Source of the DNA: a bacterium
GTDB lineage: Bacteria; Bacteroidota; Ignavibacteria; Kapaibacteriales; UBA7675
Reading direction: 5' to 3'
Assembly (NCBI GenBank): GCA_030426285.1
Contig: JAUHYX010000006.1
Span: 1 to 32,524, forward strand
DNA length: 32,524 nt
Shown here: in pieces, positions 13,480-32,524 of the stretch
Position numbering within the stretch: the first letter of the stretch is position 1
Layout: each line of letters begins with the position of its first letter
Notes under the pieces: generated by a model
What the model was told of the DNA's origin: nothing
Seen by the model: the letters and a program-made list of their open reading frames with translations, nothing else
Database searches by the model: none
Position numbers and translations under genes: made by a program

Positions 13480-15309
13480 TCACAGTTGCTTGGCAATTGT
13501 AAAGTAGAACGTTGATCCATTTTCTTGTTCACTCTCTACCCAAATATTCCCTTTGTGCATTGTGACAACGCGTTTGCAGTTTGCCAAACCTATGCCTGAG
13601 CCTGGTTGTTCACTCTCGCTGTGTGCCTTAGTAAAAATGTTGAATATGCTCTTCTGGTGTTTTTCTGCAATTCCTTGACCATTGTCACTAATAGAAAACA
13701 AGTAGTGGTCCAACTGTTCTTTGCAGCTTATGTTTATGACCGGACTGCGTTCATGTGACCGGTACTTGATAGCATTTTGAATAAGGTTTTGAAACAGCAT
13801 TTGCAAATGTGGCATGAAACCTAGGATCACAGGTAGGCCTGCAAATTTGACAAGTGCATGCGAGCGGTTGATGTCAGCCGTGAGGTCGCGCAACACATCG
13901 GGAATCAATATATTGAGATCTACTCGTTTGGGCGGTTCACTCATGTCTTTCTTTGCAAAGTCTAAGAGCGAGACAATCATATTTAGGAGACGTGAGACAG
14001 TTTGTCCACTGCGCTCCAACAACTGTTGTTTGCTGTCTTCAGACAAACCAGAATTAGGATCGAGAAGAGAATCGATAACTTGCTGAACAGAAGACAATGG
14101 GCTCTTCAGGTCATGTGTTGCCATGTATACAAACTGTTCCATTTCAACACTTTGCACGAGTAGTTGTTCGTTGGCAAGCTTTAGTTCGGAAACATCGACA
14201 AATGATCCCAAAATTGAAGTGAGGTTCCCTTCAGAATCGTAGTCAAATCCGCAGTCACGAGCCTGGCACCAAACAATACTACCTGACTTGTTCTTGATCC
14301 GATACAGCATTGTGTCGTATTCACCATCATTGAGCGCTTTAATACGTTCGAGGTGTTCTGCCAAACCCTGTAAATCTTCAGGGTGAAACAACTCAGAATA
14401 CTGTTCAGGTGCCATTGCCTGTAGCTCTTCGAGTGTGTATCCGCTCAACTCTGTGAACTGCCGATTCACATACGTGTATCGTCGCTTTTCCAAGTCGTAG
14501 ATATACACGGCATTTGCTGAAGAATTCATCACATTGGAGATAAAATCGTGCTGCTCACGGTTGCGTTGCTCAAGGTCTCTAAGTGCCGTAACGTCCTTGG
14601 ATATGAGGTTGACACCTACGACAACATTGTTTTTTACAATAGGGGTGGCAGCTGTTTCAAATACCGATTTTCCATTGAGAGATGGGTATTCAATGCTGTA
14701 CTGAACTGGTTCTTTGCTCTCAAAGACTTCCTCGAGCTTTTGCGCGACGCGTTCTTTTTCGGAATCGGGTAGAATAGACAGCAAGTGTGAGCCAACTACA
14801 TCTTGCTTTTTTAGGTTTGGGGCAATATGATTTACATACTGAATGGTCAAATTACTGTCTACTTGTGCTATGTAGTCTTGGTTGTAGTCAACAACAGATT
14901 TATAGAACGCTTTGAGGGTTTCTGCCTCTCGAATCAACTGTATCTTTTTGGAGGCATCAACAATAAGAGCTAGGACCAATTTTTGCTGTTTTGACTCAAA
15001 TGGTGTCAATGAAACTTCAATCGGGATGAGCTGGCCATTTTTGTGTTTGCCTTGCAAAAACCGTCCTTCGGCCATCCGTCTACTCGAGGCTTGCTTGAAA
15101 AAGTCCTGACGGAGTTGGCTATGACGTTCCGCAAAACCATCTGGCAGTAGCATACTCATTTGCTGTCCGATCAGTTGAACTTTCGAGTAGCCAAATAGAT
15201 CGACCATGGCTCGATTGGCGAATTCCACAATGCCTTGTTCGTTCACGGCAATGACGGCTTCGACCAAGCTGTCAATCGCATCAAATTGTGTTGTTGTGCT
15301 AAATGGCAT
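13480..15309 (-). CDS. Multi-PAS-domain sensor histidine kinase
   Basis: Three PAS-like segments, MATHDLKSPLSSVQQ H-box, QNLIQNAIKYRS N-box, DNGQGIAEKHQKSIF, GSGIGLANCKRVV. Start at ATG 15309 (MPFSTT) preceded by AGAGGA. Confidence 0.9.
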   Translation of the reverse strand: MPFSTTTQFDAIDSLVEAVIAVNEQGIVEFANRAMVDLFGYSKVQLIGQQMSMLLPDGFAERHSQLRQDFFKQASSRRMAEGRFLQGKHKNGQLIPIEVSLTPFESKQQKLVLALIVDASKKIQLIREAETLKAFYKSVVDYNQDYIAQVDSNLTIQYVNHIAPNLKKQDVVGSHLLSILPDSEKERVAQKLEEVFESKEPVQYSIEYPSLNGKSVFETAATPIVKNNVVVGVNLISKDVTALRDLEQRNREQHDFISNVMNSSANAVYIYDLEKRRYTYVNRQFTELSGYTLEELQAMAPEQYSELFHPEDLQGLAEHLERIKALNDGEYDTMLYRIKNKSGSIVWCQARDCGFDYDSEGNLTSILGSFVDVSELKLANEQLLVQSVEMEQFVYMATHDLKSPLSSVQQVIDSLLDPNSGLSEDSKQQLLERSGQTVSRLLNMIVSLLDFAKKDMSEPPKRVDLNILIPDVLRDLTADINRSHALVKFAGLPVILGFMPHLQMLFQNLIQNAIKYRSHERSPVINISCKEQLDHYLFSISDNGQGIAEKHQKSIFNIFTKAHSESEQPGSGIGLANCKRVVTMHKGNIWVESEQENGSTFYFTIAKQL

Positions 15310-15419
15310 GCATTCCTCTAACCGGTGAACAGTATAGTGCAAGCAAAATCGGTGAATCATGCTTAGCCTAGTTCGTAGATTATAGCTCTCGCGCCACACA
15401 AATACAATCAAAAAAGCAC

Positions 15420-16196
15420 TTATTCCCACCAATGGTGCAATTCTTGCCGTTTGGCAATTTCGTCTCCATCAATCCAAGCTTTGACAAAAACATCCCAGCC
15501 ATTTGACATCGATTCTGCAGGGATATCGAATTCAGATCCGCCGGCATTAAACATAATCGCTTTATGTGGCACTCTGTAGTCGCCCCAAGAACACGGCATG
15601 GAAAGGGAACCGTCATAGATTCTCCACGTTCCCAAAAAAGCATTATTGAGGTAACCTTGAGACTGAATACTCCTGTCGTCATACCTCCACGAGCCTTGGT
15701 CATCAAGGTACACCAATGTATAGAACCGCCCTTGGAATGTTCCGCTATGGTACTGCGCTGAATCTTCAACAAACTCGTACGAACCGACAATTGTGTACTG
15801 ACCTTGTAAATCATTCGATGGTTCATACTCACTATCCGAAGTCATGGGGACCGTAGCAAACACAGAATCTATACGCATCCACCCGTGAAAAGCACCAATG
15901 TTGCCACTGACATTTGACGCACCAGCTACATCAAACCTCAAATGCGAGTTTGATGTTCTACGCACATCTCGAAACGCAATCTTTATTCTCTGAAATTTGT
16001 CGCCGATAACGCCGAGTACATTGTGTGGTTCGGTATGGCACCAAATGTCTTGAGGCTTCAAATTCTTCAGCAGCGACAGTTCATCGACTTCTTGCAATTC
16101 AACCTCTTCAACAACGGGAAACAAGTCAAGAATATCAGTTGCTACAGGACTACTAACACTCAGACCCAACAAAACGTACCAGATGCATAATTTCAT
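15420..16196 (-). CDS. Hypothetical secreted protein (258 aa)
   Basis: Long ORF with an N-terminal signal peptide (MKLCIWYVLLGLSVSSPVATD) and no strong competing ORF. Confidence 0.75.
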   Translation of the reverse strand: MKLCIWYVLLGLSVSSPVATDILDLFPVVEEVELQEVDELSLLKNLKPQDIWCHTEPHNVLGVIGDKFQRIKIAFRDVRRTSNSHLRFDVAGASNVSGNIGAFHGWMRIDSVFATVPMTSDSEYEPSNDLQGQYTIVGSYEFVEDSAQYHSGTFQGRFYTLVYLDDQGSWRYDDRSIQSQGYLNNAFLGTWRIYDGSLSMPCSWGDYRVPHKAIMFNAGGSEFDIPAESMSNGWDVFVKAWIDGDEIAKRQELHHWWE

Positions 16197-16415
16197 AACA
16201 TCTTCTCTGAAAGCAGGATTAGTGGCATCTCTGCAAACAGCAGAGACATAAATACATCAAAATACATGATTATATTGTTCCACAAAGCTACCGTGCACAA
16301 CTTTCTGAGTAATTATGTTTGCTGTTTCTTTCAAAACTAATGCATTTCGACTCATCCAGCTATTGGGTGATTCTCAACAACGGCAACCTCATATTTCCCG
16401 CGTTGGATTGTGACC

Positions 16416-16625
16416 TCAGTTTTCGTTCTGAAGTACGGTAATGACGCGTTCCTTAGGAAAGCTTGCAATCAGCGTGTCACCAATCCAAAACTCGTAGCAT
16501 AGGTTTTGACTACTGGGCGTCAAGACGCGATCGCATTTAATGGTTGCCGATTTTTGAACTGTCGTGGTTCCCGGCGGAATGGAGTATGTGATAGTGTACG
16601 ACAAAGAGCCTGTGTCGGAATTCAT
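16416..16625 (-). CDS. Small hypothetical protein (69 aa)
   Basis: ATG at 16625 preceded by AAAGGAGAATACC, a strong SD; MNSDTGSLSYTITYSIPPGTTT... Confidence 0.6.
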   Translation of the reverse strand: MNSDTGSLSYTITYSIPPGTTTVQKSATIKCDRVLTPSSQNLCYEFWIGDTLIASFPKERVITVLQNEN

Positions 16626-16692
16626 GGTATTCTCCTTTAACAGATTCAAGGATTGTGTTGTTGAGGATATCAAAAGTAGTTCGGAAAAACAA

Positions 16693-16740
16693 AAGGAAGC
16701 CCCTGTGTACAACACACGTTCCGTGGGGCTTCCCCTTTTA
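16693..16740 (-). terminator. Rho-independent terminator for the minus-strand gene ending at 16745
   Basis: Inverted repeat GGAAGCCCC (16696-16704) / GGGGCTTCC (16726-16734) with a T-rich run on the minus-strand transcript. Confidence 0.75.
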
Positions 16741-16744
16741 CTTT

Positions 16745-17083
16745 CTATGTTAGGCTGTCGTCTAAACACTCAGAAACTGGCTTCTGAATACTGCGTTTGA
16801 GTGCGATTTCTATGTACTCGATCAGATCTTTGTGGGTTATTTCAACGTCGTCTTTCGCAGCGTTTTTGAGCACACCCTGTAGTGTATCTAATATTTCATG
16901 TGTAGCCATGTAAGCTTGGTTCTTGGCAATTCGGCACGCAATTTCCTTGGTGCCTTCTATATCGAAAAACAAAGGAGCTTGCAGGTTGTTTTCTTCATGA
17001 AACGCCCGTTGCGAATTGTCGTGTTTCCAGCCATGACCTATGATATCTTCATGTGTTGGAATACTGTGTGTGTGCTTTGGCAT
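16745..17083 (-). CDS. Hypothetical protein (about 112 aa)
   Basis: Start MPKHTHS preceded by AAGGA; ORF ends directly at a terminator hairpin. Confidence 0.6.
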   Translation of the reverse strand: MPKHTHSIPTHEDIIGHGWKHDNSQRAFHEENNLQAPLFFDIEGTKEIACRIAKNQAYMATHEILDTLQGVLKNAAKDDVEITHKDLIEYIEIALKRSIQKPVSECLDDSLT

Positions 17084-17126
17084 GTACATTCCTTGTTGTC
17101 AAAAAAGTGTGAATATGTTCATGCAT

Positions 17127-17438
17127 TCAGCTGGCAAGATTGTATTTGAAGTATGTTTGAATAATCTTTTTTCCTCTCTTCGTGATGTTGTGCACGATAT
17201 ATCCCTGCGGGAGAGCGACGCCGGAAACCCACTGACCATGTATCAGTTTGAGGGTCTCCATAGTTTTCAGCGTCTCTACAGCTAAGTCCTGCATATCACC
17301 CCAACTCGGGTTCGCGTAGTCGATGTGACCACTATACCACAGCAGGAGGTGTAAGATATCTCCGGCAGAAACAGTTGTCCTATGTATGCCTGTTCCTGCA
17401 CATTTGGGGTTCGTTGGATATTCAGAGTTCGATTTCAC
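17127..17438 (-). CDS. Hypothetical small protein, possibly winged-helix-like C-terminus
   Basis: 103-aa ORF co-directional with 16745-17083; C-terminus GYIVHNITKRGKKIIQTYF resembles a wing/recognition segment. Start codon (GTG) uncertain. Confidence 0.5.
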   Translation of the reverse strand: MKSNSEYPTNPKCAGTGIHRTTVSAGDILHLLLWYSGHIDYANPSWGDMQDLAVETLKTMETLKLIHGQWVSGVALPQGYIVHNITKRGKKIIQTYFKYNLAS

Positions 17439-17459
17439 GTGCTTTGATTGTTTTTGAAT

Positions 17460-17473
17460 TGATCTATAGATCA
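17460..17473. promoter_or_regulatory. 14-bp perfect palindrome TGATCTATAGATCA upstream of a small hypothetical operon
   Basis: Perfect inverted symmetry; 22 bp upstream of the annotated start at 17438. Confidence 0.35.
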
Positions 17474-17530
17474 GTTATCGCTATGTTTTGTAGTTCTCAG
17501 CGAGATACATGAACAAACATGAAGAGGCAG

Positions 17531-17740
17531 TTAGTACTCTTCGTCGATATCGGTGATCGAAACTTCATCGGCTGCTTGACCAAACACTACTCTGATGCTG
17601 TCCATCAAATCTTGATCGTTCTCTACAGCATCAACTTCACTTTGTCGAGAGGCTTCAATCATATAGATCTCCTGCGACGAATATTCGCATGGGCTGCAAA
17701 TGGCACCCAAAAAAAGCAGTACAATAAGAAGGTTTTCCAT
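17531..17740 (-). CDS. Small secreted acidic hypothetical protein (69 aa)
   Basis: Signal-peptide-like N-terminus MENLLIVLLFLGAICSPC, acidic tail, upstream GAGAGGA SD. Confidence 0.5.
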   Translation of the reverse strand: MENLLIVLLFLGAICSPCEYSSQEIYMIEASRQSEVDAVENDQDLMDSIRVVFGQAADEVSITDIDEEY

Positions 17741-17840
17741 GCTCGTGTCCTCTCTTGTATGTCACGTTGCTAGAAACCTACATGCGAGTCGTTTGGAAGA
17801 GGTGGACACATTTGCTCTAAAATTCAATGCGAGAAAAAAC

Positions 17841-19334
17841 ATGGATAATTTGCGGGCTCTGTGTGCCTTGGTTCGGGATTTGGACAAGCAGGAGATTGTG
17901 GCGGATCTGTTGTTGCAGCAGGGAGGAGAGACCCTGCGGCGCTTCTATGTTGGAATTCGCGACAATGTATACATGAATGAAGCTGATGCTTTGGCGGATT
18001 TGTACCCTGGAGAACACAATCCTTCTACATATAGCATGACGAAGGCGCGTCTGCGCGACGCACTCGTCAATATGTGGTACGTGCTGCAACCTGTGCAGAG
18101 CAAGAATGAACACGAACAGGTTGAGAAAGCTCTTCTGCACTGCGAGAAAAGTATTGGTGCTTTGCGAGCCATGGTTAGAAGTGGCAAGGGGTTGTATGCT
18201 GAGAAGTCCCTACGGCGAGTGCTTAGTTTGTCGGAAAAATATGAATTCACGCAAATTCTAGCTGAGGCGCATCAGCTAATGGCGTCAATTGCTACACTAA
18301 ACGGAGACTCTAACGCGGTTGAGAAGCACCAACACCGTTCACTCGAGATGTATCAGTTGAACACGTTAGAAATAGAGTCTGACGCATTGTTGCGCCAACT
18401 GTATTCGGGTTCGTTTCGTTCTGCAAAAGATGTGTTGCCAGAAGACAGGCTGATGAGTATCGACAAGCGGCTCGGAGAAATGCTCAGCGAGCACCAATCA
18501 TCTTTTAAGTTGAAACGCAACGTGTTTCGCGGTCGCAACTATATCGCGCAGTACCACCACAACTATGCATTGTCAGCACATCTGTGTGAAGAAATGGAAC
18601 ACTTTTACGAAGAGAATTCACACTTGCTCAGTCCAGCTCGTCTCGCAGAAACCTGCATACACAGATCTTGTGCTCACTTTCACTTGGGCGAATATGAAAC
18701 CGGAGCTCAGTTTGCAACAACAGCAATTGAGAACCGACCAGAAGCTTCTAACAATTGGCTCATCGCCAAAAATTTCCAACTGCTCAACACGCTGCACTTA
18801 GGCAATGTTCGCGAGGCTAGAGACATCATAAACAGTGTGCTAAACTCGCCAAATTTTTCGAACCGAACGCTGCCCATGCAAGAAAAATGGCGCTTGTACG
18901 ATAGTCTGGTCTCGTTTGTTGAATCTACACATAGTAAACGAAGTTACAGAGCATCAGTAGACGATTTACAGCACATCCCCAAGGACTACAAAGGGTACAA
19001 TATCATCCACGTAACTATTAGTCTGCTCGATATGCTGGCCAATGACGAATTCGATGTCTTGGTTGATAGGGTGGATTCGTTGCGAAAGTATATCGCGCGG
19101 CATGTCAAATCTTCGGACCCTCGTTCGCATGCCTTTCTCAAGAGCATGGAAATTATGATCAGGCAAAATTTCAATGTGAAAAAAACTGAGGCACTGGCGA
19201 GCAAACACATCCTGAAGCTGAAAGAAGAATTCACACAGCGGTCAGAACACATTGAAATTGTACCATATGAAATGCTCTGGAAGCGACTACAGCAGATTAG
19301 TGATATGCGGAAAATTGTTGAACCGTCGTCGTAG
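17841..19334 (+). CDS. Hypothetical predominantly helical (TPR-like) protein, 497 aa
   Basis: Long ORF; likely ATG at 17841 (MDNLRALCALVRDLDKQEIVADLL...); helical-repeat-like segments (HLGEYETGAQFATTAIENRPEASNNWLIAKNFQLLNTLHLGNVREARDII). Confidence 0.75.
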   Translation: MDNLRALCALVRDLDKQEIVADLLLQQGGETLRRFYVGIRDNVYMNEADALADLYPGEHNPSTYSMTKARLRDALVNMWYVLQPVQSKNEHEQVEKALLHCEKSIGALRAMVRSGKGLYAEKSLRRVLSLSEKYEFTQILAEAHQLMASIATLNGDSNAVEKHQHRSLEMYQLNTLEIESDALLRQLYSGSFRSAKDVLPEDRLMSIDKRLGEMLSEHQSSFKLKRNVFRGRNYIAQYHHNYALSAHLCEEMEHFYEENSHLLSPARLAETCIHRSCAHFHLGEYETGAQFATTAIENRPEASNNWLIAKNFQLLNTLHLGNVREARDIINSVLNSPNFSNRTLPMQEKWRLYDSLVSFVESTHSKRSYRASVDDLQHIPKDYKGYNIIHVTISLLDMLANDEFDVLVDRVDSLRKYIARHVKSSDPRSHAFLKSMEIMIRQNFNVKKTEALASKHILKLKEEFTQRSEHIEIVPYEMLWKRLQQISDMRKIVEPSS

Positions 19335-19350
19335 TCTACAATCTGCCGAA

Positions 19351-19761
19351 CTAGCGTCGAATAAACGTGAGATCATGCCTTTGAATACGTATGGTATCGC
19401 GTTTTTCCAGGCGGAACGACAACTGATTTTCCTCGAACTCATTGTCAGTCCCTAGTCCACAGGTAACAGAATCACCAATCCCGTATAGCAATTGAACGGT
19501 CTGCTCGATTTCGAGCGGTGGCATCTGAATTGTGTCAGGAGTATAACAATCTTCGCTTTGTCGCTTTGTAAACACAGATATATCGCTGCTGAAGGCTGGA
19601 TCAGCTACAAATGCCCAGTGAATGTAACGATCCGAATACTCTGTACCAGCATCTGGCTGAACATCGATAATGACAACGGGTGAAAAAGTATCAATCGCAG
19701 GCTCGGTAGACGAGGAACAGGCCACCAATGCACAACAAAAAAGACAAGCCAAATATTTCAT
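19351..19761 (-). CDS. Hypothetical lipoprotein
   Basis: MKYLACLFCCALVACSSSTEP: SpII lipobox LVAC. Confidence 0.7.
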   Translation of the reverse strand: MKYLACLFCCALVACSSSTEPAIDTFSPVVIIDVQPDAGTEYSDRYIHWAFVADPAFSSDISVFTKRQSEDCYTPDTIQMPPLEIEQTVQLLYGIGDSVTCGLGTDNEFEENQLSFRLEKRDTIRIQRHDLTFIRR

Positions 19762-20203
19762 GTATTCAACAACACTACGTGAAAAAAAAATGCGCGAGCT
19801 GGACAAATATACGCTGAGAATCGAAGTTTTGAAAGGGTATGAACTGATGGTTTGCGAACGCGTGTTTGATACTATACTAGTTTACATAACACGGATAGGG
19901 CTACCTGACACTTGATATTCCTGCGACAAAAGAAGTGTTGTAGACTTGGACAGTCACATAGTACTTTTGTCTTCTTTATAGTGTCGTAACCTACTGCATC
20001 CATGAATCAATGAATTCATGAAATCACGAGTTCACAACAAATCTGGCACACTAATACATTTTTGTCTATTCCAATACCGCCGATAATATATATTATGTAA
20101 AGTAATTCAAATGTATACCTGAGAAAGTTTGGTGACACTCATATACCCTACTAGTTAGAACGTACTTCTTTTAGAGGGACAGATTTGGCTTTAATAGATC
20201 CTA

Positions 20204-21310
20204 TCATGGACAATCATCTGCGAACAACACTTTTGTCGGAATGAGTCCAGCGGTCAATTCAGTATTTATACATGTGTTTGACACTTGGCCTAAATTCTGA
20301 TAGTCCAACGCGTTCGTGTACCACAAACAATCTGAGCATGAATTGTAATCCAATGAATACAATGCATTTTCGGGGCCAAATGAAGATTCAATTACGAGTT
20401 CTGACTCTCCAGTTTCAAGATCGAGCTTCGAGATTCCTTGTGGTCCGATATATGCTATTTCAGTTTCATCAATAACTTGTAGGGAGAATGAGCGGTTTTC
20501 TATGCGCCACTCTTCGATTACCTGTCCTGAGTTCGGCTGAATGCGTTGTATCCCCCCCAATGAGTCCTGTTGCTCACCAACTTGATAGTGGTTAAACAAG
20601 CAATACAGCTCATCTGAATTGTCTGCGTAAGCAAGCGTCGTTGGATTTGGACCAAGTTCGGTGTATCCTATTACTGTTCCACTTTCCAGATTGATGGTTA
20701 GCAGTGTACTTGCATTGGGTTCGTCTTTGCGGTAAATACCTAGACCACTATTAACGACATAGAGTTTGTGGCCTACTACCATCACGTCCTCTGGGGCAGG
20801 ACCCGTTCCCCAAGATCGCGCAATCTCCGGATTGGTGATGTCAGAAACATTGATTTCATACACGCTGTCGCGAAAATCAGTTACATATAGGAATGTGTTA
20901 TAGTCGCCTTGCCCGACACATAGTTGACGTGGACTCGGATTGGCTCCTGGCAATGGCAGAGTGGCAATGTGGTGACCAGAAAGATCCAGAAATACTACGG
21001 CACCTGAACCATTGAGCGATACTGCTAACATTCGTTCGTCCTGAACGCTAATCAATTCCATGTCCACCGCAGCATCACCAAGCGGAACTCCATTTGCTTC
21101 GGCGAAAAGACTCGAATGTGTGTGCTCCAACGTTGCACCACAATAGGCGTCAATAGACGCATTGTTACTGCCCCACAGTCCTTCATTTAGAACAAATACT
21201 GTTGGATCTTGACATGATATACTCTGAATTGGGTCTTCATCTGAGCATGAATATGCAAGGAGAGTAAATATGGCTAGAGCTAAGAAATTCGTGTTTCGAT
21301 TGTATGTCAT
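20204..21310 (-). CDS. Beta-propeller surface lipoprotein (DUF5074/YncE-like; BtuG-like fold suggested)
   Basis: Lipobox LLAYSCSDED; FVLNEGLWGSNNASIDAYC start and repeated blade-like strands (LTINLESGTVIGYTELGPNPTTLAY; LDLETGESELVI). Confidence 0.7.
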   Translation of the reverse strand: MTYNRNTNFLALAIFTLLAYSCSDEDPIQSISCQDPTVFVLNEGLWGSNNASIDAYCGATLEHTHSSLFAEANGVPLGDAAVDMELISVQDERMLAVSLNGSGAVVFLDLSGHHIATLPLPGANPSPRQLCVGQGDYNTFLYVTDFRDSVYEINVSDITNPEIARSWGTGPAPEDVMVVGHKLYVVNSGLGIYRKDEPNASTLLTINLESGTVIGYTELGPNPTTLAYADNSDELYCLFNHYQVGEQQDSLGGIQRIQPNSGQVIEEWRIENRSFSLQVIDETEIAYIGPQGISKLDLETGESELVIESSFGPENALYSLDYNSCSDCLWYTNALDYQNLGQVSNTCINTELTAGLIPTKVLFADDCP

Positions 21311-22209
21311 GGTGTTGGAAGGTACACTTGGAATGTGTGAGTTACTTGTTGTTGTACGTCGCAGATCATCACAAACACCATTCCTGTGACGAATGCTGGC
21401 ACTTGCGTTGAAGTTCCTACTGGCACAGTGGCTGAAAACTGACGTTTTCCTAGCGCATTAAAGACTCGAATTTGAATGTCTTCGTGATACGTATTTTGAA
21501 TGCTGCGATGATGTAAAGAAACAGCTTGAATGTCATCTGTTAGAATCGAGTTGGCACTATATGACTCAGAGTTCAAAACTGCTATCGCATCAAGCTCACT
21601 ACCATCTACGATGGGATCGTACAGTGGATGTCCAGGAGTTTTGATAATACCGGACACGTCTTGCAAACGAATGAACCGAATACTGTCTACTCCAATTGAT
21701 TCCAAATCAAAGTGGGTGCCTCCTGCCTGCAGAATGTCGGTCTCAATTGCAGCTCCAATGGTTGGTTTGGTACCAGAACAACCCACAAGAGTTACTGAGT
21801 CAAATGGGAAATCAATCCACTCAAGTCCATCTCTCGATACAGAAACTTGTGCCGGCTCAATGAACAATCGACCTAGTCCCTGAATTTCGAAAGCGTTTTC
21901 AAATACAATGAAATCTGTGCCAGGTTTGTTTACACACCACTCACCTCCTATAGTCAACGTAATACTTCCCCCCAACCCAAGCGAAACGACATCATCTGGT
22001 GATGTTGAAGGTATGAATCTCGTTGCGGTAGTAGTTGGTCTATTCAAATTATTGGGAAAAAACTGACTCGATTGTGATTCGAATTCTCCTTCTCCCCACG
22101 AGACATTAACAACTTCTGAAAGCCAAATTGGCGCGGAATCTTGGGCGGCCGTGATGCAAAAACTGAGAAAAAAGAACAAGAGAGTTTGTTTTGCTGCGGA
22201 AATAACCAT
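21307..22209 (-). CDS. Secreted cell-surface protein with possible T9SS-type C-terminal domain
   Basis: Signal peptide; GGSITLTIGGEWCVNKPGTDFIVFENAFE; C-terminal IQIRVFNALGKRQFSATVPVGTSTQVPAFVTGMVFVMI resembles a type A sorting domain. Stop overlaps the next start by 4 nt. Confidence 0.65.
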   Translation of the reverse strand: MVISAAKQTLLFFFLSFCITAAQDSAPIWLSEVVNVSWGEGEFESQSSQFFPNNLNRPTTTATRFIPSTSPDDVVSLGLGGSITLTIGGEWCVNKPGTDFIVFENAFEIQGLGRLFIEPAQVSVSRDGLEWIDFPFDSVTLVGCSGTKPTIGAAIETDILQAGGTHFDLESIGVDSIRFIRLQDVSGIIKTPGHPLYDPIVDGSELDAIAVLNSESYSANSILTDDIQAVSLHHRSIQNTYHEDIQIRVFNALGKRQFSATVPVGTSTQVPAFVTGMVFVMICDVQQQVTHTFQVYLPTP

Positions 22210-22297
22210 CGAAGTGGAGCTGAGATTAAATGAGTGTTTTCAATTCAGACCGCAAACTAGTAAATTTGCACTGAACAAAATGAAAACAGGATGAACT

Positions 22298-22849
22298 ATG
22301 AATACTGAAACAAAACAATATGTCGTGTTTGGCCTTTTGGTCACGTTTGGAGTGCTGGGAAGAATCCTGCTAGTGGATTATCCAAACTTCGCCCCTATTA
22401 CAGCATTGGCAATATTCGGCGCTGCTTTTCTGCCAAACAAACGTATGGCCTACGCAATCCCTTTGGGCGCCATGTTGGTGAGTGATTTGTTTATCGGTTT
22501 GTATGATGGTATTTGGATGACATATTTGGCTTATGCAGCTGTTGTCGCGGTTTCACTGCCAATTTTCAAGCAAAAGGTTTCTGCACCACGAGTTTTAGGT
22601 GCAACAACACTGGGTGCGGTCGTATTCTTTGTGATTTCCAATCTCGGTGTTTGGCTGACTGGTGTTTTTAATCCAAGCATGGCATTGTATGCAGCAGACT
22701 TGAGCGGATTGGTGATGTGCTATGAAATGGCGTTGGCTTTTTATCGCGATCATCCCACAATTCTTGGTGACGTGCTCTTTGCTGGTGTTTTGTTTGGTGC
22801 TTATGCCTGGTACAAAGAGTCTCAAACCAGCCAGACCCAAGTTGCATAG
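22298..22849 (+). CDS. DUF6580-like putative transport membrane protein (ECF S-component-like topology)
   Basis: Multi-TM; NFAPITALAIFGAAFLPNKRMAYAIPLGAMLVSDLFIGLYDGIW...GVVFFVISNLGVWLTG-type segments. Confidence 0.65.
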   Translation: MNTETKQYVVFGLLVTFGVLGRILLVDYPNFAPITALAIFGAAFLPNKRMAYAIPLGAMLVSDLFIGLYDGIWMTYLAYAAVVAVSLPIFKQKVSAPRVLGATTLGAVVFFVISNLGVWLTGVFNPSMALYAADLSGLVMCYEMALAFYRDHPTILGDVLFAGVLFGAYAWYKESQTSQTQVA

Positions 22850-22875
22850 CGACAGACACATGTTTACGTGAAAGC

Positions 22876-22916
22876 AAAAAAAAGCACCGTTCGAAATTGA
22901 ACAGTGCTTTTTTTTT
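22876..22916. terminator. Bidirectional rho-independent terminator between convergent genes
   Basis: A-run, GCACCGTTC (22884-22892), loop, GAACAGTGC (22899-22907), T-run. Fully paired with one G-U on the minus-strand transcript; one C-A mismatch on the plus-strand transcript. Confidence 0.88.
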
Positions 22917-22943
22917 ACACTCAAGGGGTTGTCACGCGTATTA

Positions 22944-23372
22944 CTATTTGTGACGGTCTAGGTTTTGTTGCTTCGTCTTTGAACCAGTTCCCAAGACTTT
23001 ACGCAATCCTTTGATCACGTCTGAAACAGTGTTGAGTGGACGTATGATTTGTTCAGATACGAACTTTTCGAGCTCTGCGATGCGACGGGTGACACCAGCA
23101 ATCTCTTGTACTATCTTGCCTGTGTCGTCTAATTGCTCTTCTACCTTCTTAGTGATGCCCACACTGTGTTTGCTAGCCTCTTCTAAGTATCCGAGGGTTG
23201 GACTCGTTTTTTGACGAAAGTCTTTAATCTCATCCAAAACCGCCGAAATTGTCATAGAAGTTTCATTGGTAACTCTCCTGACGTCCCTTATCATAGAAAT
23301 AAGAAAACCACAGGTAACGATACCAACAACACACAGTGCAGCAGCCAAAATATCCAATACCAAATCAGGCAT
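22944..23372 (-). CDS. DUF948-like single-TM protein
   Basis: MPDLVLDILAAALCVVGIVTCGFLISMIRDVRRVTNETSMTIS...; start overlaps the upstream YtxH gene stop (ATGCCTGA) with a GAGGAG SD. Confidence 0.7.
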   Translation of the reverse strand: MPDLVLDILAAALCVVGIVTCGFLISMIRDVRRVTNETSMTISAVLDEIKDFRQKTSPTLGYLEEASKHSVGITKKVEEQLDDTGKIVQEIAGVTRRIAELEKFVSEQIIRPLNTVSDVIKGLRKVLGTGSKTKQQNLDRHK

Positions 23373-23775
23373 TAGAAGTCTCCTCTTCGCCATCTTCTTC
23401 ATGGCGTTTCAGATTAGAGATATTATCGTTGATTTCTGACTGCATATGCGAAACGCGATCGCGCGCTTGATTCACAAGCTCCTCAGCTTCAAACAACAGA
23501 TGCTCTGCTTGATCACGAGCTGAATTTACAACGTCTTGCGCGCGCTGTTTGCCTTCGTTGATGTAAACTCTTGCTCTGTCTCTTGTTCCGCGACTATATT
23601 CAGAAGCACGACTGTACACATCATTATAGATGCCTTCTCCGCGTTCTGCTAAGTCCTGTCTCAGCTCTTTTCCACTTTTTGGAGCGAGAAGCAGCGCTGA
23701 AACAGCACCAATTGCTCCACCCAACAACAAGCCAATTGCCATACCTTTTGTGTATGATTCTTCATTGTTTGCCAT
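23365..23775 (-). CDS. YtxH domain-containing protein
   Basis: GMAIGLLLGGAIGAVSALLLAPKSGKELRQDL signature. Confidence 0.88.
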   Translation of the reverse strand: MANNEESYTKGMAIGLLLGGAIGAVSALLLAPKSGKELRQDLAERGEGIYNDVYSRASEYSRGTRDRARVYINEGKQRAQDVVNSARDQAEHLLFEAEELVNQARDRVSHMQSEINDNISNLKRHEEDGEEETSNA

Positions 23776-28535: not shown

Positions 28536-29027
28536 TTAGCCTGAGGTAACGGGCTTGAACTGTTCAAAAGCTTGACTGCAATTGTTGCAGTAGTGAATTG
28601 AGCGACACAAGGTTGGACCAAACGGAGTTTGCATTGTCGTATTGCGAGAATCGCAATGCGGACAAGCAACATTCTGTAACACGTCCAACGAAATATATCC
28701 ATCATGAACTGGCGGAGGAGCTAAACCCCAATCTTTGATTAAGGCTCGACCCTTTTCAGAAATCATGTTTGAATTCCACTGTCGGTCGAAATTCACATTT
28801 ACTGTCACTGACTCAACCCCGAGTTCAACAACAGCATCTCGAATCGAACGCTTTATGAAGTCAATTGCCGGACACCCTGCAAATGTAGGAGTTACTTCTA
28901 CCTCAGCTGCTCCGGATTCGTCAATAGATATCGACGAAACCATCCCGAGATCCACCACACTAAGCTTGGGAATCTCGGGATCCATAACACTATCTAAAGC
29001 AGTCCATATTTCCTGCTCAGTTACCAT
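28536..29027 (-). CDS. paaD: 1,2-phenylacetyl-CoA epoxidase subunit PaaD (MIP18/SufT-like, zinc-ribbon tail)
   Basis: VMDPEIPKLSVVDLGMV, FAGCPAIDFI, C-terminal CPHCDSRNT...CNNC; in paa gene order. Confidence 0.9.
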   Translation of the reverse strand: MVTEQEIWTALDSVMDPEIPKLSVVDLGMVSSISIDESGAAEVEVTPTFAGCPAIDFIKRSIRDAVVELGVESVTVNVNFDRQWNSNMISEKGRALIKDWGLAPPPVHDGYISLDVLQNVACPHCDSRNTTMQTPFGPTLCRSIHYCNNCSQAFEQFKPVTSG

Positions 29028-29779
29028 TCTACCTCTGTATCTATTACGAGCACTTCACTCATTTCTTTCACCAATGGTGCCAGATATTCGGAGTGATAAC
29101 CCTTTCGGCCGCCAACTACTGGTGTGATAGAACTCCAGTCAGGAGCAGCGAGGCCTGCTTTTTCCAAAATTGGGTCTATCGCCGCTTGCCATTGTGCTTG
29201 CAAATCCTGCTCACTTACAACAACTCCCTGCTCTACAAGCTCCTGCTCGCCTTCGATTGCTTCAAACAAACCAAGAGCATACGGAGCCAACTCATCCAAC
29301 GCAGTTTGCATGCGGGCTTTGCTGACTTCTGTTCCATTGCCAAGCTGGTCAATCCAAGTGTTGGCGTGCAACACATGGTATTCAACTTCCCCTTTAAATT
29401 TCTTGGCTAGGTTGGCCAACGGTTCAAATGGGCAAGAAACCAAAGAAGCGAGACGCACCCGCTCGGCATGGTCAAACAAAAAGTGGCGCATCAGCGAAGT
29501 GTCGTAACCGCCATTCGGCAGCTCAACCAGCTGAGCACAAGTGTACTTCCCTTCTTCACGCAAAAACGCCAAGGTGTCAGGATGATCGTAACCAAACGTT
29601 GTATGCAACACATTGTACAACGCCTGCGCTTGTCCAACCTTGTCTTGAGCCATTGAGCAAAAGGCAATATCCTCTTCGATAACCGGGCCAAATGCCGTCC
29701 ATTCAGAATGCCTGTGCCCGAGCACGAGCAAATCGTCGGCCGTCTTCAGAATATAGTTTTCTAATGCGCTAGTGTTCAT
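29021..29779 (-). CDS. paaC: 1,2-phenylacetyl-CoA epoxidase subunit PaaC
   Basis: ADDLLVLGHRHSEWTAFGPVIEEDIAFCSMAQDKVGQAQALY; in paa gene order. Confidence 0.92.
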   Translation of the reverse strand: MNTSALENYILKTADDLLVLGHRHSEWTAFGPVIEEDIAFCSMAQDKVGQAQALYNVLHTTFGYDHPDTLAFLREEGKYTCAQLVELPNGGYDTSLMRHFLFDHAERVRLASLVSCPFEPLANLAKKFKGEVEYHVLHANTWIDQLGNGTEVSKARMQTALDELAPYALGLFEAIEGEQELVEQGVVVSEQDLQAQWQAAIDPILEKAGLAAPDWSSITPVVGGRKGYHSEYLAPLVKEMSEVLVIDTEVEW

Positions 29780-30146
29780 TCATCTGCCTCTTAAACTTCT
29801 CTATCTTGTCTCGCACTTTGTAGAATCCCGCATTGCGGTACTGTTTTTCAGGAACCGTTTTGTACAAACTATTATCATTTTCAACAGTGAATACCTGCGA
29901 TGTTTTGACCACCCAGATACTATATGTTTGATCTCTGCGCCCATACTGCTCTTTGGCAAATGTGTATGCCAATTCCGAGCTAGGAGCGTGTACGGTTCCT
30001 TGATGAATGTGCCGTGCACCTGATTTTTTCTGATGGAACACTTCGTATGTTTCCCACTGTTCCTCTGGGTTGAGAACCACTTCTGTTGGTTCTGTTGGTA
30101 ATTCCGCACGTGCGACGCGCGGATCTAACGACTTTATCGTAGCCAT
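29769..30146 (-). CDS. paaB: 1,2-phenylacetyl-CoA epoxidase subunit PaaB
   Basis: ETYEVFHQKKSGARHIHQGTVHAPSSELAYTFAKEQYGRRDQTYSIWVV. Confidence 0.92.
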   Translation of the reverse strand: MATIKSLDPRVARAELPTEPTEVVLNPEEQWETYEVFHQKKSGARHIHQGTVHAPSSELAYTFAKEQYGRRDQTYSIWVVKTSQVFTVENDNSLYKTVPEKQYRNAGFYKVRDKIEKFKRQMNEH

Positions 30147-30167
30147 ACTTCCTTGCTGTTTTGATGC

Positions 30168-31157
30168 TTAACTGAGTGGCAAAACTTGTTTTCCTGAACG
30201 AGCCATAAGTGCTTCGCGCACCCACCTACCGTCTTCCTCGGCCTTTCGGCGAACCTGAAGTCGCTCGTGATTACAAGGACCATTGCCTTTAATCACTTCC
30301 CAGAATTCATCCCAATCTGGATCGCCAAATTCCCATTGCCCAGTCTCTTCGTTTTTCTTCAAGTCTGGATCAGGAACTGTGAGACCCAATTCCCAAATTT
30401 TAGGGACATACATATTGAGGAATGTTTGGCGCATGGCATCATTTGAGGCCATTTTCACTTTCCAACGCTCAAGTTGGTTTCCGTGAACTGATGATGTGTC
30501 TGGAGGTCCGTGGAAGTGCATGATCGGCTTCCACCAGCGCGTTAAGGCTTCTTGCACCATTGCGCGTTGTTGTTCAGTGCCCGTGGCAAGTGTCACAACA
30601 GACTCATATCCATAAAACAAGTGGAACGACTCTTCTTGGCAAATGCGGTCCAACGCCCGGCAATACGGTCCATACGAACCCTTTGCATTTGTGGTTTGGT
30701 TTACGATTGCTGCCGCATCAATGAGCCATGCAATAACAGCGGTGTCTGCCCAGGTTTTTGCTGGATAATTGAAAACATTTGAATACTTGCTCTTTCCACT
30801 CAACAGGTCGTTGATCATTGCTTCGCGGGGCTTCCCAAGAGTTTCTGCTGCATTGTACAGGAGTTGGGCGTGGCCAACTTCATCTTGCACTTTTGCGAGT
30901 AGACTCAGTTTGCGACGGAACCCTGGCGCACGCGTGATCCACGTACCCTCAGGCAATGCGCCGATTATTTCACTGTGAGCATGTTGCTCTATGAGTCGAA
31001 TTAATTGTCTGCGATACTCATGTGGCATCCAGTCATGCGGTTCAATCTTTTCACCGGCATCAATCCGCGCTTGGAATTCCTCCAAACGCACCGGGTCTTC
31101 TTGATCCACAGGTACTTTTTTGTCTATGTCGTCGGGTATAAATCCACCACCGTACAT
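30168..31157 (-). CDS. paaA: 1,2-phenylacetyl-CoA epoxidase subunit PaaA
   Basis: ferritin-like PaaA signature: [50 protein letters not shown]. Confidence 0.93.
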
Positions 31158-31233: not shown

Positions 31234-31885
31234 TCATAGCCATGTAATGTTTTCAGTCCCGTATTGGGCATAATACTCAGAAAGTTTCTTTTTTGTCTCG
31301 TTCTCGGCGTTGCGCAAGGCATGCGGAATGAGGTCAACCGCCCGGCTCAAACTGTACACGTTGATGTTTCGGCGCTCGAGTTCTTCGTAAACCGACGAAC
31401 CGTCTGCGCGTTTCTCACATCTGTCCGTCAACCGATTGCTCAGACAACTTGTCGAGTTCTGCAAACAAGCTTTTACCGGTTGTCACGGTATCTTCTATGA
31501 CAATAGTTCTGCCTCGCGGAGCGCCAACAAAGAATTTGTCCTTGGGGTCTCCATGTTCTTTGGGCTTAGCGCGACCCATGGACACAACATGCGACCCTTC
31601 TGCAAATTGTTGTGACTGCATCGCCAAGCGCATTTGAGCCACAATTCCGAGTTTTGTCGCTCCTTCTGGTACACCGTATAGTGTGTCAAAAGACACATTC
31701 TTCGCTTCGAGATATGCGAGAACAAAATCCGCTAGTTGCGACAAACTAAAGGCGTCTTCGACAACTGTTCTCCAGTTGACATAAAAGTAGGATTCGCGCC
31801 CACTCTTGAGCGTCAATGGAGCGTCGTACACTGCTATTGCTTTGTTTCGCAATACAAATTCGTTAAAAGTCTGTTGGTCAAACAT
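31234..31885 (-). pseudogene. pyrE: Orotate phosphoribosyltransferase, split across two frames
   Basis: Frame 1 (31415-31885) carries the N-terminus and PRPP motif (VIEDTVTTGKSLFAELDKLSEQSVD) then stops; the rest of the expected C-terminus (LTDRCEKRADGSSVYEELERRNINVYSLSRAVDLIPHAL) is in another frame (ORF 31234-31464). Confidence 0.75.
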
Positions 31886-31906: not shown

Positions 31907-32524
31907 TCACAAGTACAATCCGGCAATCGCCGCAGTTGAAAGACAAGCCAGGGTTGCTGCCAACAATGCTCTAGGCGCAATTCTCGACAAGTCGTTGGCT
32001 CGAGATGGAGCCAGTGCCGAAGCACCACCTACAAAAATAGCCACTGATGCGATGTGTGCAAAGCCGCATAGTGCATACGTGCACACTACAATGTTGTGTT
32101 GACCGCTAATTGTCCCATTGTCAATTCCGGTCGATAAATGTTGATACGCAACTGCCTCTGTCAAAAGAAGCCTATCGCCCAGGAGTTGAGACAAGGCGCT
32201 GACCTGCGTGGACTCGATCCCAGTCATCCATGCAAATGGATACATGATAGCAGCGCTAATAGTTTGTAAGGTTAAGCTTCCCTCCCATCCAAAGGCCGAT
32301 GCCAATGCACCACTGGTAGCACCTACAACGCTGTCGCCAATCCCGGTGATGGCCAACACCGCTATGAGCAATGCTGCTAAACCAACACACAATGTTACGC
32401 CTTGCCTCGATCCGCCTATGACTGCCGCAAACCAATTGTCGTATTCAGAGTCAACAGGCTTTACATGTTGGCCAGCAGTTTCTGCTTGCTCAGTTTCGGG
32501 AATCAATATTTTTGAAAACATCAC
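31907..32524 (-). CDS. NupC-family concentrative nucleoside transporter (C-terminal part; gene continues past window end)
   Basis: VMFSKILIPETE, ITGIGDS, FAWMTGIESTQVSALSQLLGDRLLLTEAVAYQHL, TYALCGFAHIASVAIFVGGASALAPSRANDLSRIAPRALLAATLA; the frame is open to the window edge. Confidence 0.87.
   Translation of the reverse strand: MMFSKILIPETEQAETAGQHVKPVDSEYDNWFAAVIGGSRQGVTLCVGLAALLIAVLAITGIGDSVVGATSGALASAFGWEGSLTLQTISAAIMYPFAWMTGIESTQVSALSQLLGDRLLLTEAVAYQHLSTGIDNGTISGQHNIVVCTYALCGFAHIASVAIFVGGASALAPSRANDLSRIAPRALLAATLACLSTAAIAGLYL

Follow-up and report, generated by a model that had tools for sequence, protein, structure and literature searches.

A pyrE reading frame interrupted at a TTGAC junction in a bacterial draft genome

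A split pyrE on the minus strand

The gene for orotate phosphoribosyltransferase (OPRT), pyrE, is divided between two reading frames in the DNA analysed here (the window, 32,524 nt), which raises the question of whether the organism has lost part of the gene or the contig misrepresents it. The window makes up the entire contig C85 of a draft genome that totals 3,356,261 bases in 363 contigs, with a completeness of 97.46% and a contamination of 2.24%. The sequence and the list of open reading frames agree with an earlier sequence-only reading, in which one frame ended in SVDGQM and a stop and another carried the LTDR C-terminus. The minus-strand gene starts at 31885 and is closed by a TGA at 31415, giving 156 codons that end in SVDGQM; a second minus-strand frame holds the C-terminal block LTDRCEKRADGSSVYEELERRNINVYSLSRAVDL, from a TTG at 31431 to a stop at 31234. 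The parts of the gene are as follows.

31415..31885, minus strand: 5′ part of pyrE, N-terminus of a divergent OPRT with a premature TGA (156-aa ORF; identified with TIGR00336 and by phmmer to OPRTs in PDB)
31234..31431, minus strand: 3′ remnant of pyrE, out of frame, 65 codons from LTDR to ENITWL and a stop (aligns with the C-terminus of homologues, 30–43% identical)
31427..31431, minus strand: deletion junction TTGAC (VD in the left frame, LT in the right; 23 nt absent; spacing 64 versus 87 nt)

The N-terminal part matches TIGR00336 over profile positions 12–133 with 50.8 bits (E-value 1.6e-13), below the cut-off of 106.8; intact relatives of the same divergent OPRT type, at 54–70 bits, also remain below it. 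Alignment to 31 homologues places the PRPP motif IVIEDTVTTGKS in the 5′ part. The claim that truncation spares this motif and removes the C-terminal part was thus correct, and the core strand and the LTDR segment have to be added to what is lost. No continuous frame across the core strand and the C-terminus exists in the window pyrE, owing to the premature stop and the missing nucleotides. The C-terminal frame itself is undamaged and homologous up to its end, and the flanks of the deletion show no other damage.

The size of the missing segment was obtained from 32 intact relatives, namely 31 loci from a collection of genome contigs and a gene of the same family (L039), which is 46% identical to the window pyrE. 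All 32 relatives place 29 residues, or 87 nt, between the PRPP-motif Glu and the Leu of LT(N/D)R, against 64 nt in the window, which therefore is short of exactly 23 nt. The earlier estimate of about 20 nt, with a remainder of 2 modulo 3, had the phase right and the length slightly too short. A deletion that breaks the frame, as first proposed, is the sole reading that fits this fixed spacing. The 23 nt correspond to six residues (IIAAIG-like, core strand) plus the frame shift. When an intact homologue is aligned with the solved OPRT structure 4wml, IIAAIGLTNRME pairs with VVGSIIALDRQE directly past the PRPP motif, which assigns the lost residues to the core of the enzyme. Since both this strand and the whole C-terminal part are gone, the truncated product would be without activity.

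Could the two frames still yield a working enzyme, either as two subunits or by ribosomal frameshifting? A TTG-started ORF of 76 aa does span the C-terminal part. However, the six core-strand residues are encoded in neither frame, so that neither frameshifting nor complementation can restore them, and none of the relatives is split: in L039 and the 31 other homologues one uninterrupted frame covers this region. We regard a split or frameshifted enzyme as scarcely credible and reject it on these grounds.

The TTGAC junction and the probable route of loss

A single TTGAC remains at 31431–31427 and can be read in both pyrE frames, as VD on the left and as LT on the right; the copy that would have been lost is not in the sequence. 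It had been proposed that both flanks originally carried TTGAC. The pentanucleotide indeed fits both frames, and comparison with the 32 relatives gives the right copy good support (L in 28 and T in 28 of them) and the left copy weaker support (V in 19, with a variable column, mostly N, at the D). For random 23-nt deletions in the window, a junction homology of at least 5 nt is expected at 0.5% of positions. The deletion was likely mediated by the repeat, a route deduced from what is left at the junction rather than seen, because the second copy is gone.

Our preferred explanation, to which we give somewhat better than even credence, is that 23 nt disappeared from the single pyrE of this organism, the probable route being slipped-strand or microhomology-mediated deletion between two copies of TTGAC, and that this happened recently or in part of the population. 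Such an event would shift the frame and take out the core strand that precedes LTDR. The undecayed 3′ remnant and the retention of full-length pyrB, pyrC, pyrD and pyrF suggest that the deletion would be recent, or carried by only some of the cells.

The break in pyrE is an event of an already known kind. In 5-FOA-resistant mutants of Halobacterium salinarum, pyrE2 has a hotspot for 7-nt deletions at a 9-nt direct repeat (42 mutants; PMC2816208). The two cases are alike in that deletion at a short direct repeat inactivates pyrE. They differ in that the window allele comes from a draft genome with no known selection, with a repeat of 5 nt whose second copy is deduced.

Deletion or assembly error

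The main competing explanation is an artefact of assembly or consensus: the organism's pyrE would be intact, and the contig would reflect a wrong join of the flanks or a path that is chimeric or in the minority. The draft is in 363 pieces, the junction lies about 1.1 kb from a contig end, the de novo pyrimidine pathway is otherwise complete with no salvage enzymes found in the draft genome, and intact pyrE is present in nearly all genomes sampled from the order. The k-mer or overlap lengths used by assemblers, however, far exceed 5 nt, and joins at a 5-nt overlap are unusual; a join at TTGAC would therefore require real molecules or chimeric reads. In addition, no other broken gene was noticed among the Pfam-identified genes of the window, and no second copy or allele of the pyrE-region DNA was found on any other contig of the draft genome. 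An assembly riddled with frameshifts was rejected for this window, the remaining Pfam-identified genes looking unbroken. Papers on indel errors in draft metagenome assemblies were searched and yielded nothing specific. We consider an artefact possible rather than probable; on the strength of the atypically short overlap and the otherwise unbroken genes, we lean slightly towards a junction that reflects a real molecule rather than a contig error.

The frequency of intact pyrE in the order was estimated from 61 sampled genomes, the window's own included. All of them have a TIGR00336 match, which exceeds the cut-off in 55. The best match is weak in G048 and G058 and may belong to another phosphoribosyltransferase, and in G034 pyrE is apparently divided between two contigs. 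A missing or split pyrE is thus an occasional feature of draft genomes.

A second gene that could compensate for the break was looked for, as the sequence-only reading had proposed. Profile search of the 363 contigs found no second pyrE, a result that, like every gene absence given here, is bounded by the completeness of the draft genome and by how sensitive six-frame profile searching is. A fused pyrE/pyrF was rejected as well, profile searches and the pyrF frame showing neither this nor a second pyrE. Other phosphoribosyltransferase matches were discarded as pyrE candidates, since their frames and neighbours suggest hpt, prs and a RecQ-PRT fusion.

The pathway otherwise appears intact. Full-length frames of pyrB, pyrC, pyrD and pyrF are found elsewhere in the draft genome (L042, L049, L041 and L040, respectively), with carB, or at least its first 468 aa, adjoining pyrB in the same locus; by NCBIfam models, pyrC, pyrF and pyrB score above the curated cut-offs and pyrD below. 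In contrast, profile searches of the draft genome gave no match to uridine kinase (PF00485), uracil phosphoribosyltransferase (UPRTase, PF14681) or dNK-type kinase (PF01712). Taken as assembled, the genome offers the cell no route to UMP that we can find. With no salvage enzyme detected, no source of UMP would be visible if a null pyrE were fixed, and the organism would then be a pyrimidine auxotroph without a detectable salvage enzyme. That the three enzymes went undetected therefore speaks for an artefact or a minority allele rather than a fixed null pyrE.

Established auxotrophy, in which pyrE would be a long-fixed pseudogene and nucleosides would be imported, has some appeal from the gene lying directly upstream.

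31907..32524, minus strand: 3′ half of a nupC-type concentrative nucleoside transporter gene, cut by the contig end (TIGR00804, 137.5 bits, profile positions 203–401 of 401)

Yet a nupC-like frame also adjoins the intact pyrE of the same-family relative (L039), so that the nupC–pyrE neighbourhood predates the break. Moreover, pyrB, pyrC, pyrD and pyrF are undecayed, and no kinase or UPRTase was found in the draft genome for imported nucleosides or bases. This explanation appears unlikely. Still less likely, in our judgement, is a maintained polymorphism in which pyrE-null cells coexist with intact kin and take up, through NupC, the pyrimidines that these release, the salvage enzyme of the null cells having gone unrecognised. 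A nucleoside transporter of the NupC type is encoded although PF00485, PF14681 and PF01712 are unmatched genome-wide.

If the preferred deletion is real, it would mark the start of pyrimidine auxotrophy in a bacterium, ahead of decay in other pyr genes. If the junction is an artefact, one contig join can yield a false call of auxotrophy in metabolic reconstruction. Neither outcome alters a general idea.

The divergent OPRT type and neighbouring genes

The window gene shares the PRPP motif, the K-EHG loop and LT(D/N)R with a divergent type of TIGR00336 PyrE known here from Lokiarchaeota, DPANN archaea and Aminicenantes metagenome-assembled genomes (MAGs), and is 45–55% identical to it over the N-terminal part. 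Unlike members of this type, it has its frame broken by the 23 missing nt. Among the loci retrieved, the divergent type occurs mostly in Lokiarchaeota and DPANN assemblies, and the close homologues of the window OPRT are mostly from Lokiarchaeota, Woesearchaeota and Aminicenantes MAGs. In the family to which the window belongs, G001 has a divergent OPRT next to nupC, and G002 has an ordinary TIGR00336-type gene. This mixture of divergent and ordinary PyrE, together with the source of the homologues, suggests that horizontal replacement may have taken place.

Elsewhere in the window, several long ORFs without a Pfam match lie within 13480–23402 (for example 17700–19334, 20204–21310 and 21307–22209). 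Directly downstream of pyrE, at 28536–31157, are the phenylacetyl-CoA epoxidase genes paaABCD, which are apparently intact.
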